Shown here piece by piece: positions 2,195-6,383 of a stretch of DNA of 64,000 nt. Origin of the DNA: Niastella sp. (lineage in GTDB: Bacteria; Bacteroidota; Bacteroidia; Chitinophagales; Chitinophagaceae); the NCBI GenBank assembly GCA_017744515.1, contig JAGIBF010000046.1:1-64000 (forward strand), written 5' to 3'. Made by a program: the position numbers and the translations under genes. Position 1 is the stretch's first letter, and every line of letters begins with the position of its first letter. The notes beneath the pieces were generated by a model, which worked only from the letters and a program-made list of their open reading frames with translations, made no database searches and was not told the DNA's origin.

Positions 2195-3643
2195 TTATTC
2201 TCCCATTACTTCTCCGCCTTTTTTCATCCATGGCCTGGGTGCTGCACCATCCATTTTCACGATCTTAGGATAAAACAGACCTACAGTATCTACAAGATGT
2301 TGCTGGGCATTCATCACTGTATAGATATCCTTATAGGCATGTGGGGCCTCATCCAATCCACCTCCCAGCAGTTTCACGCCATGCTTTGTAAGCATTTCCT
2401 GTAAAGCGTTCTTTGTGATGGCATTCAAGGCAGCCGTTCTGCTCATTTTACGTCCCGCTCCATGCGAAGCGGAATTGATCGACGCCAGTTCACCCTTACC
2501 TTTTACGATAAAGCCAGGCGCCGTCATGGAACCAGGAATGATACCCAGCACATTCTTACCGGCAGGTGTAGCACCTTTTCTATGCACGATCACTTCCCGC
2601 CCTTCGTACATTTCCCGCCAGGCAAAGTTATGGTGGTTCTCTACCATTTTCAACGGCTGCCGACCCAATTGCTGCGCAATCTTGGCATGGATCACATGAT
2701 GACAGGCGCTTGCATAATCCCCCGCCAGGTTCATAGCCATCCAGTATTCTATTCCTTCATGTTCATCCATTGCCAGCCACGCCAGGTTATTGGCTTCACC
2801 CGGCAAACGCCTTTTCTGTTTAGCCACTTTGGTATAGTGATTGGCAATATTCGCACCCAATGCACGTGATCCTGAATGCGATAACAGTCCGAGGTAATTT
2901 CCCGGCGCCACACCCAACTGCTCATCCTTCTCTTTTACCTCAACAATCCCAAACTCTACAAAGTGGTTTCCTGAGCCGGAAGACCCCAATTGCCTGGCAG
3001 CCTTTCCCTGTAATCCTTTCAACAGAGGCAGCTGATCAAACTCCGGACGATCTATCACCGGATGCGCTGTGGATTGTTCAAACTGTCTTCCTCCACCAAA
3101 CAAAGTAGCCTCATTCAACTCACGGGTAAAATACTGCTCACGCTGTGTCAACTCTTTTGGATCTATATCGAATATGGATAAGCACATCCGGCATCCGATG
3201 TCAACGCCTACACCATATGGTATCACGGCGTTTTCTGTAGCCAATACTCCTCCGATCGGCAACCCATATCCTGCATGCGCATCCGGCATCAAAGCGCCTG
3301 CTATAGACACTGGCAGCTTAGCTGCCTGATACATCTGGTCCATAGCCCCGGGCTCGATGTACTCTCCTCCAAATACATTGAACTGGATACCAGTTGAATT
3401 CAGCGATATTTCCACACCTTCCGGTACCGGCTTAGGCAATAATTGTTGCGCCACGGGCGCCAGTATAGCATCCTCCACATACTCAGCCGGAGTAGCCAAT
3501 ACGTTCTTTAATATTTCTATTGCCTGTTCGGTAGTATGATGCTTGTAATTACGCTCCATCACATTCATGGCAATACTGATCACGGGTCCTTCCGGAAAAC
3601 CTATTGCCCTTAATTCTTTTCCTTTCAATTTTAACTTAGCCAT
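2195..3643 (-). CDS. rtcB: RtcB family RNA-splicing ligase
   Basis: PDAHAGYGLPIGGVLAT, GVDIGCRMC, GSSGSGNHFVEFG, SHSGSRALG, ENHHNFAW, SHGAGRKMSRTAA; the metal and GMP-His motifs of RtcB. Confidence 0.95.
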   Translation of the reverse strand: MAKLKLKGKELRAIGFPEGPVISIAMNVMERNYKHHTTEQAIEILKNVLATPAEYVEDAILAPVAQQLLPKPVPEGVEISLNSTGIQFNVFGGEYIEPGAMDQMYQAAKLPVSIAGALMPDAHAGYGLPIGGVLATENAVIPYGVGVDIGCRMCLSIFDIDPKELTQREQYFTRELNEATLFGGGRQFEQSTAHPVIDRPEFDQLPLLKGLQGKAARQLGSSGSGNHFVEFGIVEVKEKDEQLGVAPGNYLGLLSHSGSRALGANIANHYTKVAKQKRRLPGEANNLAWLAMDEHEGIEYWMAMNLAGDYASACHHVIHAKIAQQLGRQPLKMVENHHNFAWREMYEGREVIVHRKGATPAGKNVLGIIPGSMTAPGFIVKGKGELASINSASHGAGRKMSRTAALNAITKNALQEMLTKHGVKLLGGGLDEAPHAYKDIYTVMNAQQHLVDTVGLFYPKIVKMDGAAPRPWMKKGGEVMGE

Positions 3644-3648
3644 ATTAC

Positions 3649-4722
3649 TTAATTTTCAATAACAGCTCTCCTGAATCCAATTACCTGCACTTGTTGTTGC
3701 TGGCTTACCGGCTCACCCGGATTGGTGATCTCAGCAATGGTCATGGGCTGTTTTATTAATGTATCGAATCCCAGTTGATTGCTCAGTCTTTGCGCTTTTG
3801 GAATACTCAATTTACCAAATTCGTATCGTGCAATCAACCTGCCCTTCCGCATCAGCGCACTATCTATCATCGTCAATGAGCTATTAAATGTACAGATCAA
3901 TTGCACATTCAAAAAGTCAGCCAGTAGCCCATCAGAAATATTCAGCAGATTGGATACTGAGGAATGAGGATTGTTTCTCCTGTCCATGATCACATTTTCT
4001 GCATCTTCGATGATCACCACACTATTGGGGTTATCGATGAGCAAATCAATGAAATCAGGATCAGTGAGGCTTCCTGCGATATTGGGAGACAAAAACATTA
4101 CTTTCTTTTTGATCCGCCCAATTAAGTGACGCAGATAGGTAGTCTTACCCGATCCCGGCACTCCATGCAGTAATACGATCCCTTTATCATCCTTTTGGTT
4201 CAACCGTTTCCTGATATGTGCATCTACCTCTTGGAAATCATCTTCGTAGTAGAGGTCGAGGTCCAGTTTTGTACGCTTGATCTCCATTGCTTTCAATTCG
4301 AGATAGTTGCCACTCTTAACGATCAGGTTGATCTCCAACGGCTTTCTGCGCTGCCTTTCTTTGAATTGACGCAGGAAGCCAATCAGTTCTCCGATCAGCA
4401 GTTCGTTGGCGCTATCATGCAGAAGCTCACAATAGCCTTCAGAAAACTCCAGCACACAACGGTCTTTCAGGATCACGATCGTGTCGTTAAAATCAACTTT
4501 TTTATCGCCCCGTTTGAATTTACGGTACGTATGTACCGACTCAACGAGCGCTTTATATTTTTCCTGGAAAGCTGTATATGCCTTTTCACCCTCGATATCG
4601 TCTACAAAACTGATACAGGGAACAGCAGCAAAACAGTACATGTATAAAGCTTTGCTATCTATATAATAATTATCAAAAATGCTATTGGCATTAATGATAC
4701 GCTGGTCTAAAGTGTTGTCCAT
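3649..4722 (-). CDS. AAA family ATPase (BCS1-like)
   Basis: Walker A LLHGVPGSGKTTYLRHL, Walker B SVVIIEDAENVI, sensor-type segment LICTFNSSLTMIDSALMRKGRL; 5 bp upstream of rtcB on the same strand. Confidence 0.85.
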   Translation of the reverse strand: MDNTLDQRIINANSIFDNYYIDSKALYMYCFAAVPCISFVDDIEGEKAYTAFQEKYKALVESVHTYRKFKRGDKKVDFNDTIVILKDRCVLEFSEGYCELLHDSANELLIGELIGFLRQFKERQRRKPLEINLIVKSGNYLELKAMEIKRTKLDLDLYYEDDFQEVDAHIRKRLNQKDDKGIVLLHGVPGSGKTTYLRHLIGRIKKKVMFLSPNIAGSLTDPDFIDLLIDNPNSVVIIEDAENVIMDRRNNPHSSVSNLLNISDGLLADFLNVQLICTFNSSLTMIDSALMRKGRLIARYEFGKLSIPKAQRLSNQLGFDTLIKQPMTIAEITNPGEPVSQQQQVQVIGFRRAVIEN

Positions 4723-4836: not shown

Positions 4837-4907
4837 CGGGAACAGGATGATTCGAACATCCGTCCATCCGTTAACAGCGGAGCGTTCTGCCATTGAACTA
4901 TATTCCC
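4837..4907 (-). tRNA. tRNA-Asn-like (anticodon GTT), compact, no encoded CCA
   Basis: Acceptor GGGAATA/TGTTCCC, D arm GTTC-AATGGCA-GAAC, anticodon loop CTGTTAA, T arm GGATG-TTCGAAT-CATCC, G73; 4-nt variable loop, 71 nt. Confidence 0.85.
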
Positions 4908-4910
4908 AAT

Positions 4911-5048
4911 AACAGGGTAATGAGTCGAAAAGTGCACATATGTCCATTGCTCTGCCAACTGAGCTACCGGCCCATTGCATGTTCCGGGCTGGACTCGAAC
5001 CAGCGACACATGGGTTATCCGAAGTAACACTTCTCTACGACACCTGTT
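4911..5048 (-). ncRNA. Y-RNA-like element 1: Ro-type stem plus tRNA module circularly permuted at the anticodon arm
   Basis: Outer stem AACAGG/CCTGTT, TGTCGTA internal loop, stem GAGAAGTG/CACTTTTC, TTACTTCGG; then CCAT, T arm GCTGG-TTCGAGT-CCAGC, CCGGAAC-ATGCAAT-GGGCCGG, TA, D arm GCTC-AGTTGGCA-GAGC, ATGG. Confidence 0.75.
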
Positions 5049-5049
5049 G

Positions 5050-5120
5050 ACGGCTTAAGAAGACTCGAACTTCTATCTGTACGTTCGTAGCGTACTATTC
5101 TTCCTTTAAACTATAAGCCG
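5050..5120 (-). tRNA. tRNA-Arg-like (anticodon ACG)
   Basis: Acceptor CGGCTTA/TAAGCCG, anticodon arm GTACG-CTACGAA-CGTAC, T arm AGAAG-TTCGAGT-CTTCT, 4-nt variable loop; T73 atypical. Confidence 0.85.
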
Positions 5121-5123
5121 ATG

Positions 5124-5195
5124 GTTGTCTTTGGGCCTCGAACCCTGTTCTCCTCATTCACAGTGAGGTATTTTACCTGTTAAACTAAAGACAAC
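5124..5195 (-). tRNA. tRNA-His-like (anticodon GTG) with G-1:C73
   Basis: Acceptor TTGTCTT/AAGACAA preceded by G-1 and followed by C73; anticodon arm CCTCA-CTGTGAA-TGAGG; T stem shortened. Confidence 0.85.
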
Positions 5196-5201
5196 ATACT
5201 G

Positions 5202-5274
5202 ATACCGGGCTCAGATTCGAACTGAGAACATCACAGTCAAAGTGTGATATGTTGGCCGGTTACACTACCCGGTA
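5202..5274 (-). tRNA. tRNA-Gln-like (anticodon TTG)
   Basis: Acceptor TACCGGG/CCCGGTA, anticodon arm TCACA-CTTTGAC-TGTGA, T arm CTCAG-TTCGAAT-CTGAG; T73 atypical. Confidence 0.85.
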
Positions 5275-5277
5275 TTG

Positions 5278-5351
5278 TTGGCCCGGTGAGAGTCGAACTC
5301 ACAACCCAGGGAGTAAAAGTCCCTTACTCTGCCTGCTTGAGCTACGAGCCA
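5278..5351 (-). tRNA. tRNA-Lys (anticodon TTT)
   Basis: Acceptor TGGCTCG/CGGGCCA, D arm GCTC...GAGT, anticodon arm AGGGA-CTTTTAC-TCCCT, T arm GTGAG-TTCGACT-CTCAC, A73. Confidence 0.9.
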
Positions 5352-5363
5352 ATGTTTATTCTG

Positions 5364-5436
5364 TTGACCTGCCGGGGCTCGAACCCGGAGCTTTCTGCGT
5401 ATAAGGCAGCTACTCTTACCATTGAGTTACAGGTCA
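5364..5436 (-). tRNA. tRNA-Ile-like with unusual anticodon TAT
   Basis: Acceptor TGACCTG/CAGGTCA, D arm ACTC...GAGT, anticodon arm GCTGC-CTTATAC-GCAGA, T arm CCGGG-TTCGAGC-CCCGG, A73. Confidence 0.8.
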
Positions 5437-5441
5437 GGCGT

Positions 5442-5510
5442 TGCGACCTTCAGATTCGAACTGAGATCTTCACCTTATGAGGGTGATATGCTACCCTTAC
5501 ACCAGGTCAC
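5442..5510 (-). tRNA. tRNA-Met/Ile2-like (anticodon CAT), short form
   Basis: Acceptor GTGACCT/AGGTCGC, anticodon arm TCACC-CTCATAA-GGTGA, T loop TTCGAAT with 4-bp T stem; about 69 nt. Confidence 0.8.
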
Positions 5511-5517
5511 AATAAGT

Positions 5518-5588
5518 ATAGCGGCAACAGGTTAACAGTGTTTAGCTTTGATCCTCAGTCGAAGTATCACTGTTTTACGACACGCTAT
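5518..5588 (-). ncRNA. Y-RNA-like element 2: minimal form without tRNA module
   Basis: Outer stem ATAGCG/CGCTAT, TGTCGTA internal-loop strand, stem AACAGTG/CACTGTT, ATACTTCGA; 71 nt. Confidence 0.65.
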
Positions 5589-5589
5589 G

Positions 5590-5662
5590 TATAGCAGGCA
5601 GGACTCGAACCTGCACCCTCTTCGTTCCAGGCGAAGTATCCAACCAATTGGAATGCTGCTAT
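5590..5662 (-). tRNA. tRNA-Pro-like (anticodon TGG)
   Basis: Acceptor ATAGCAG/CTGCTAT, anticodon arm CTTCG-CCTGGAA-CGAAG, T arm GCAGG-TTCGAGT-CCTGC, A73; position 8 is C. Confidence 0.85.
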
Positions 5663-5667
5663 AAGTT

Positions 5668-5808
5668 GAATGAGCTATAAGATGCACAGCGACTATGATC
5701 TCTGAGCTATCCTGCCCAAAAGACAGGAGCAGGAGTTGAACCCGCGACCTTTCCGACACAAGTACCGGAACGCTCTAACCGAAGTAACGCTATGCTACGG
5801 CATCATTC
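5668..5808 (-). ncRNA. Y-RNA-like element 3: Ro-type stem plus tRNA module circularly permuted in the D-loop
   Basis: Outer stem GAATGA/TCATTC, TGCCGTA, stem GCATAGCG/CGCTGTGC, TTACTTCGG; then TTAGAGC, TTCCG...CGGAA hairpin, T arm GCGGG-TTCAACT-CCTGC, TCCTGTC-TTTTG-GGCAGGA, TA, GCTC. Confidence 0.75.
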
Positions 5809-5814
5809 AATATG

Positions 5815-6348
5815 TTAGTCCATTACTGTTTTTTGTATCTGCACAAGATGTCTTTGCGCATGTTGCACCAGAAAATAGATATAATGATATACATCTATTT
5901 TACCAAGACTATTGACTGTCATCGTTGTTTTATACAACACCCCCTGCCCATCCTTCATTTGATCAAGCAGATCAAGGCACTCCTGCACCTGTAATTGCAT
6001 CGTTCTTTTAATGTCATTCATTGATACTGTCCCGGAAGGCTCCATATGATCAGGTCTATGCCATCTGAAAGCATCGGGCTGCCCGATCAATTCCAGTTTT
6101 GACCAGTCGAGGTCATAATCAGTTAGCATGTCCCGATAACTTTGAGTTCTTGAGCGCTCTAACGCCTTGATCGTTCCCTTCCGGATCAGTATCAACAGAT
6201 ACTTATTGGTCAGGGATATATGTTCCAGTATTTTAGCGACACTCCAACCACCATTTTCAGGCGCATGGTAGAGTTTATCATCATTCACATCGAACCACCT
6301 CAACACTTCATCAAAAGTGCCGGTGAGTTCTGTCCTTATCTTGCTCAT
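5815..6348 (-). CDS. DinB-superfamily (YfiT/DinB_2-like) protein
   Basis: MSKIRTELTGTFDEVLRWF, WSVAKILEHISLTNKY, HYIYFLVQHAQRHLVQI; start chosen after AAGGAGG; stop lies 6 nt before the RNA array. Confidence 0.75.
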   Translation of the reverse strand: MSKIRTELTGTFDEVLRWFDVNDDKLYHAPENGGWSVAKILEHISLTNKYLLILIRKGTIKALERSRTQSYRDMLTDYDLDWSKLELIGQPDAFRWHRPDHMEPSGTVSMNDIKRTMQLQVQECLDLLDQMKDGQGVLYKTTMTVNSLGKIDVYHYIYFLVQHAQRHLVQIQKTVMD

Positions 6349-6383
6349 AAAATCCTCCTTCATGCATTTAACTTTTTGGAAAA

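Follow-up and report, generated by a model that had tools for sequence, protein, structure and literature searches.

A surplus tRNA array in an rsr–rtcB operon of Chitinophagaceae, preceded by candidate attenuators whose leader codons match the array tRNAs

The window analyzed here is a stretch of 64,000 nucleotides from a contig (JAGIBF010000046.1) of the draft genome of a soil-type bacterium, Niastella sp. (Chitinophagaceae; 7.6 Mb, 93% complete). It carries a run of minus-strand genes in the order rsr (Ro60)–DinB_2–array–AAA–rtcB, in which the array consists of eight tRNA genes interleaved with three Y RNA elements. As in operons of the rsr/rtcBA type, rsr, the Y RNAs and rtcB share a common strand. 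Upstream of rsr are two leader ORFs in tandem, and behind each of them lies an intrinsic terminator with which an antiterminator can compete. The preliminary description of this DNA located the RNA elements but overlooked their operon context (rsr and rtcB), their strand and the upstream leaders. The features are:

8597–8630 (-): promoter-like element GTTGG...TAATTACACCTTTGCA, -33/-7, conserved in five congeneric genomes
8467–8568 (-): leader ORF 1, MLRIQMHIETAKWFNPGEDFTSYAGHVMLPGNL, the "roll-call" peptide (ORF and conservation)
8493–8499 (-): segment 1 of attenuator 1, GCGGGGC, the antiterminator 5' arm within leader ORF 1
8413–8440 (-): terminator 1, AAGCCCCGCTCCACGCGGGGTTTTTTGT; its 5' arm GCCCCGC is segment 2, the alternative partner of segment 1
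8242–8403 (-): leader ORF 2, MQKNTTTIRFMVLGDHCELTNRPCYAITIPGSIGKRNDQQEIRKRPESIPIQE
8265–8270: GACCGG, inside leader ORF 2, the competing segment for terminator 2
8189–8221 (-): terminator 2, AAACCCGGTCAATACACTGACCGGGTTTTTTGT
6443–7960 (-): rsr, Ro60 orthologue (domain match, TROVE and vWA_Ro60)
5815–6363 (-): DinB_2 family protein (domain match)
about 5670–5803 (-): Y3, Y RNA carrying a tRNA-like module in permuted order (alignment)
5590–5662 (-): tRNA-Pro(TGG), C33 and A37 (Rfam)
5519–5583 (-): Y2, short Y RNA that lacks the tRNA-like module (motif search)
5441–5511 (-): tRNA-Met(CAT) (ARAGORN/Rfam)
5364–5436 (-): tRNA-Ile(TAT), sole copy detected in the genome (ARAGORN/Rfam)
5278–5351 (-): tRNA-Lys(TTT) (ARAGORN/Rfam)
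5202–5274 (-): tRNA-Gln(TTG), A37 (ARAGORN/Rfam)
5124–5195, end approximate (-): tRNA-His(GTG), A37, shortened T stem (ARAGORN/Rfam)
5050–5120 (-): tRNA-Arg(ACG), A37 (ARAGORN/Rfam)
4912–5044 (-): Y1, YrlA-like Y RNA, tRNA-like module permuted (Rfam YrlA match and alignment)
4837–4907 (-): tRNA-Asn(GTT) (ARAGORN/Rfam)
3649–4722 (-): AAA ATPase (domain match), also in 8 of 31 array loci
2195–3643 (-): rtcB, 3'-phosphate RNA ligase (domain match), kept in five of five congeners

All eight tRNA genes are matched by Rfam RF00005 with 47.9–65.6 bits (gathering score 29), and ARAGORN calls seven tRNAs in the array. The eleven RNA elements first described are borne out, all on the minus strand. A chance origin of the array is excluded because all eight tRNAs score far above threshold and their neighbors are coherent. 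Like functional tRNAs, the array genes combine good covariance-model scores with an intact anticodon and U33, with the exception of Pro (C33), and the T stem of the His gene has 3 bp on inspection of the ARAGORN structure. None of the eight encodes CCA, as had been pointed out, but this absence is not distinctive, because just 3 of the 30 housekeeping tRNA genes examined encode it. Adjacent array tRNAs are spaced by 3–12 nt, and this tight spacing fits the proposal, plausible from the sequence, that the array RNAs are cut from one shared precursor.

The host genome contains 41 Rfam tRNA matches, eight of which are in the array. A second genomic copy is present for Asn, Arg-ACG, His, Gln, Lys, Met and Pro-TGG, so that for seven of the eight isoacceptors the array does not hold the sole copy; the exception is Ile-UAU, as no copy of Ile-TAT besides the array gene was found in the 93% complete draft. 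The array genes are 48–64% identical to the host's own housekeeping isoacceptors and 76–97% identical to the array genes of a sister species. Although the good covariance-model scores would suit an ordinary housekeeping tRNA cluster, such divergent copies elsewhere for all but Ile-UAU make this reading so improbable as to be nearly negligible. The array had been described as specialized or phage-type. The first term stands, given the separate copies, their low identity and the recurrence of arrays beside rsr/rtcB in Bacteroidota, whereas the second lacks support, as the flanks are chromosomal and syntenic and the phage matches isolated. A remnant phage or mobile tRNA cluster could explain both the density of the array and its patchy spread (of 249 genomes from the family, 19 carry rsr). 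It is nevertheless very improbable, as congeners are syntenic and share the flanking two-component genes, the flanking proteins scanned include no phage genes and, among the matches listed, phage matches are single tRNAs with ~74–80% identity over at most 9% of the array. Membership in the phage tRNA clusters was likewise rejected, since the phage gene neighborhood that it requires is missing. The array Arg, Gln, His and Pro tRNAs have A37 where their housekeeping counterparts have G37 (four of four G36 tRNAs in the window). This replacement holds in many other Chitinophagaceae arrays; as a universal array rule it was dropped, the G36 array tRNAs elsewhere being mixed (43 A vs 28 G), and it was kept only as a lead.

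Y1 aligns end to end with the Rfam YrlA family (RF02553) at 40.4 bits (E = 4e-7) without reaching the gathering score of 69. Full-length YrlA matches score 34–41 bits, also under the 69-bit gathering score, and the Y elements are therefore called a divergent YrlA-like group and are not filed in RF02553. They are encoded beside rsr, as is characteristic of YrlA. In an alignment of 31 module-bearing Y RNAs, the Ro-type stem encloses a T arm, an acceptor helix and a D arm, which amounts to a circularly permuted tRNA, and compensatory changes are found at 20 of the 24 pairs of this fold. Across the fetched loci the Y-RNA motif was matched 163 times, a figure that includes double counts from overlapping loci. 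At L187 (G002), Y-RNA motifs remain although the genome had no Rsr match. The T half of Ile together with the D half of Lys (window 5292–5429, adjacent tandem tRNAs) has a weak YrlA score of 23.7 bits, which suggests that permuted Y RNAs could derive from tandem tRNA arrays.

The trp, his and ilv attenuators consist of a promoter-proximal leader ORF with regulatory codons and a mutually exclusive antiterminator and terminator. The region upstream of rsr resembles them in leader ORF anatomy and alternative hairpins: its terminator and mutually exclusive antiterminator overlap the leader ORF and are conserved in relatives, and many codons of the short leader ORF relate to the genes under its control. 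The element GTTGG...TAATTACACCTTTGCA resembles the Bacteroidota-type promoter consensus, and would place the transcription start directly upstream of leader ORF 1. Leader 1 and the GCGGGGC/GCCCCGC pairing are kept in five congeneric genomes. In the minimum-energy folds of all five, segment 1 and segment 2 pair prior to synthesis of the terminator arm, and covering segment 1 allows the terminator to form in the predicted fold. Variable sites in leader 1 among four species fall mostly in third codon positions (7/6/14 at positions 1/2/3). Within a stretch of 19 codons, leader 1 (MLRIQMHIETAKWFNPGED...) spans all 12 isotypes seen across the arrays of the genus (P = 1.9e-5, 321,274 random coding windows); Glu, Asp, Phe and Trp, which leader 1 also polls, have no genes in the window array and are present in sister species. 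In leader ORF 2, ATA makes up six of the seven Ile codons. A small ORF with a good Shine-Dalgarno (8018–8155, minus strand, MKLILIVLAIKFIMELV...QHPAEYALR) lies between terminator 2 and rsr; its C-terminal QHPA is conserved in Paraflavitalea sp. CAU 1676 (L028, genome G003), the nearest named relative found and of the same genus.

Codon content and tRNA content also agree at other arrays. A second array in the host genome holds Cys, Ser-TGA, Ser-GCT and Tyr genes and lies behind the leader MIRNNSYSLSLSLSCYSSSLKG... and a perfect 10-nt attenuator. This satellite cluster (L108 8809–9434, minus strand, G000 contig C119), whose leader is rich in Ser/Cys/Tyr/Leu, is kept in two congeners, in which it also includes Leu and has the leaders NTYLLSLSLSCYSS and NTYLSSLSLSCYCS; Ser/Cys/Tyr(/Leu) genes thus lie downstream of SYSLSLSLSCYSS or close variants in three species. 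The Pro/Ile-TAT/Cys arrays of Mucilaginibacter have the leader ICIPCPSPI (ATA TGT ATA CCA TGT CCA TCA CCC ATA), and in Chryseosolibacter, which has two arrays, the leader RHLHSSYRQLQ precedes Tyr, Gln, His, Arg, Leu and Ser genes. Pooled amino-acid enrichment of the leaders was dropped as evidence, as spurious ORFs are similarly biased and the normalized correlation has a common denominator, and frame and swap controls were adopted because of this confounding. In 15 systems, with leaders partly chosen by eye, the downstream array reads 130 of 323 sensing codons in frame and 126 of 616 off frame (p = 1.5e-10). Swapping leaders and arrays with fully automatic ORF choice, free of manual selection, gave p = 6e-5 in frame against 0.64 and 0.88 off frame. 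Leaders and arrays of related species are not independent samples; an exact swap test on nine dissimilar systems gave p = 3.4e-4 in frame and 0.68 and 0.87 off frame. Where Ile-TAT is present, 13 of 19 Ile codons are ATA against 4.1 expected (p = 1.6e-5). Anatomy, conservation and codon-to-tRNA correspondence are directly observed, and the frame, swap and background controls all point to an in-frame match that is specific. Attenuator-like leaders were detected at 11 of 28 array heads, 11 of 89 rsr genes and 17 of 982 control genes; for most of the 89 rsr genes no leader was detected within 700 nt. One counterexample is the array G003 C19 (L183), whose leaders mismatch its own tRNAs; like the leaderless rsr genes and the four polled isotypes missing from the window array, it counts against the attenuation reading.

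A scan of named genomes for rsr returned 80 loci, all or nearly all labeled Bacteroidota and one labeled Williamsia, and tRNA arrays lie beside rsr, AAA and rtcB at many of them, across Bacteroidota. Among 230 array tRNAs at 31 loci, Ile, Arg, Lys, Pro, Gln, Met and Asn number 15–20 apiece (UAU in 16 of the 20 Ile tRNAs), whereas Ala, Gly, Val and Thr total just 13, a scarcity that would fit selective anticodon-nuclease cleavage. Other recurring neighbors are WYL regulators, RNase H-like proteins, SPFH proteins, RlaP nucleotidyltransferases and an RNA ligase, a set that fits RNA repair. Near the operon in the window are two neighboring 2'-5' RNA ligase-like (LigT) genes (13058–14359, minus strand), also conserved in L028. 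No rsr was found in the congeners G001, G002 and G004, and no Y-RNA motif near the array in G001 and G004; at the equivalent chromosomal position, however, all three still have leader 1, followed by its terminator, as well as rtcB and the tRNA array. The constant part is therefore leader, tRNAs and RtcB, with Rsr and Y RNA as an addition. In G001, both the Lys and Met genes of the array and the Lys and Met codons of leader 1 are gone. The rtcB of one congener (G004:C1:860755-862197) contains one in-frame TAG.

Some relatives have array tRNAs with inserts. Between His and Arg, L029 (6149–6260) and L031 (1392–1494) have tRNA-like genes with a hairpin insert in the anticodon arm (CTCTCTTTCTGAGAG and CTTTCTTTCTGAAAG, respectively), perhaps a decoy or something akin to an intron. 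Elsewhere the variable or T loops of array tRNAs hold palindromic or repetitive inserts (L034 7772–7914, L031 1818–2009, L085 2454–2553), and these genes are possibly decaying. Such inserts, and the interleaving of array tRNAs with tRNA-mimicking Y RNAs, would agree with array tRNAs that act as decoys or sponges for anticodon nucleases, or as Rsr ligands, and are not translation-competent; Hughes et al. suggest a possible role of YrlA as competitive inhibitor of a nuclease (PMC7790460). We regard this as quite unlikely, as anticodon triplets are intact, U33 is retained in 222 of 229 array tRNAs, and leader codons matched to decoding specificity would be senseless unless the products decode.

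The best explanation of the array from its sequence context is that it is the output of a tRNA-damage response. Probably, a ribosome-mediated attenuator detects when any one of the polled tRNAs is lost and then turns on divergent replacement tRNAs together with RtcB repair. When all polled tRNAs are present, the ribosome would traverse the leader and cover segment 1, leaving segment 2 to form the terminator with segment 3. Conversely, when a polled tRNA is missing or uncharged, an early stall would allow segment 1 to pair with segment 2, and RNA polymerase would read on; the second leader and terminator would repeat this check in series. The read-through RNA would supply Rsr and Y RNAs (RNA quality control), the AAA ATPase, sequence-divergent replacement tRNAs of the polled specificities, and RtcB, which seals broken tRNAs. 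We infer the stalling, the antitermination, the translational use of the replacement tRNAs and tRNA cleavage as the natural trigger. Because leader codons match array tRNAs, the spare tRNAs are probably induced only on loss of a matching tRNA, and amino-acid starvation would also trip the switch, because a stalled ribosome is blind to whether a tRNA is missing or uncharged. Alternatively, the leaders could be general sensors of amino-acid starvation or translation stress (e.g., ribosome-targeting antibiotics), with the tRNAs boosting translation afterwards as in the Anabaena trn operon. Attenuators do respond to charging, and in Anabaena TrcR represses a 26-tRNA operon as well as rtcB, with translation inhibitors inducing the two (PMC10272220). 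This alternative is unlikely, as codon identity follows the tRNAs of the particular downstream array, and in frame only, which a general sensor does not need, and the output consists of tRNA genes and an RNA ligase, not biosynthesis genes. A broader form of the tRNA-loss reading, which we hold tentatively and with some doubt, is a self-auditing backup translation system, in which a roll call of the tRNA pool would induce, upon loss, nuclease-resistant replacements (altered anticodon loops, e.g., A37) along with RtcB and Ro/Y RNA, as a widespread Bacteroidota defense against tRNA-cleaving toxins and abortive infection.

Each ingredient of the system has precedents, be it ribosome-mediated attenuators, RNA-repair operons or surplus tRNA arrays (PMC7790460; PMC10272220; PMC5966550; PMC10264068). 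The Salmonella rsr-yrlBA-rtcBA operon, which is induced by tRNA damage, likewise unites a Ro60 orthologue, YrlA-type Y RNAs and RtcB (PMC7790460). It differs in that it is controlled by the sigma54 activator RtcR and includes RtcA, whereas the operon described here contains tRNA genes and has leader-peptide attenuators ahead of it. Neither the RtcA cyclase nor RtcR was matched in the 93% complete host genome, and some other regulator is therefore needed. In Anabaena PCC 7120, the trn operon also holds surplus tRNAs, normally silent there and co-induced with rtcB under translational stress, but it has a ribbon-helix-helix repressor, is plasmid-borne with rtcB elsewhere, and is not described with a roll-call leader in the portion of the report available (PMC10272220). 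Phage-encoded tRNAs evade anticodon nucleases and have been proposed to replace depleted host tRNAs (PMC10264068); they too are surplus with altered anticodon loops, whereas the host array, with its putative nuclease resistance, is chromosomal and coupled to RtcB/Rsr and an attenuator. Dense surplus tRNA genes also form the array units of mycobacteria and others (PMC5966550), compared with which the host array is smaller (eight genes) and embedded in an RNA-repair operon. The trp, his and ilv attenuators, for their part, respond to a single amino acid or a small number of them and regulate biosynthesis genes, whereas up to 12 tRNA species would be polled here, with tRNAs and RNA repair as output. 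No precedent for a leader polling many tRNAs with those tRNAs as output was found in the literature searched, which covered few subscription papers, and none emerged for tRNA genes or rtcB under attenuation of any kind. As far as that literature goes, these would be the first known tRNA genes attenuated by their own products. The system suggests how bacteria without RtcR may sense tRNA damage, with the ribosome counting tRNAs, and would explain spare tRNA arrays adjoining RNA-repair genes; the trigger and function of bacterial Ro60/Y RNA systems become directly testable with a simple reporter.

Roll-call-type leaders (e.g., MHSYLNCTLCQPQDKRLDSREGKWCDR) are also present at rsr/rtcB loci of Hymenobacter (L053, L081, L084, L101 and others). 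Because these loci are mostly without arrays, the sensor may in Hymenobacter also govern RNA repair by itself.
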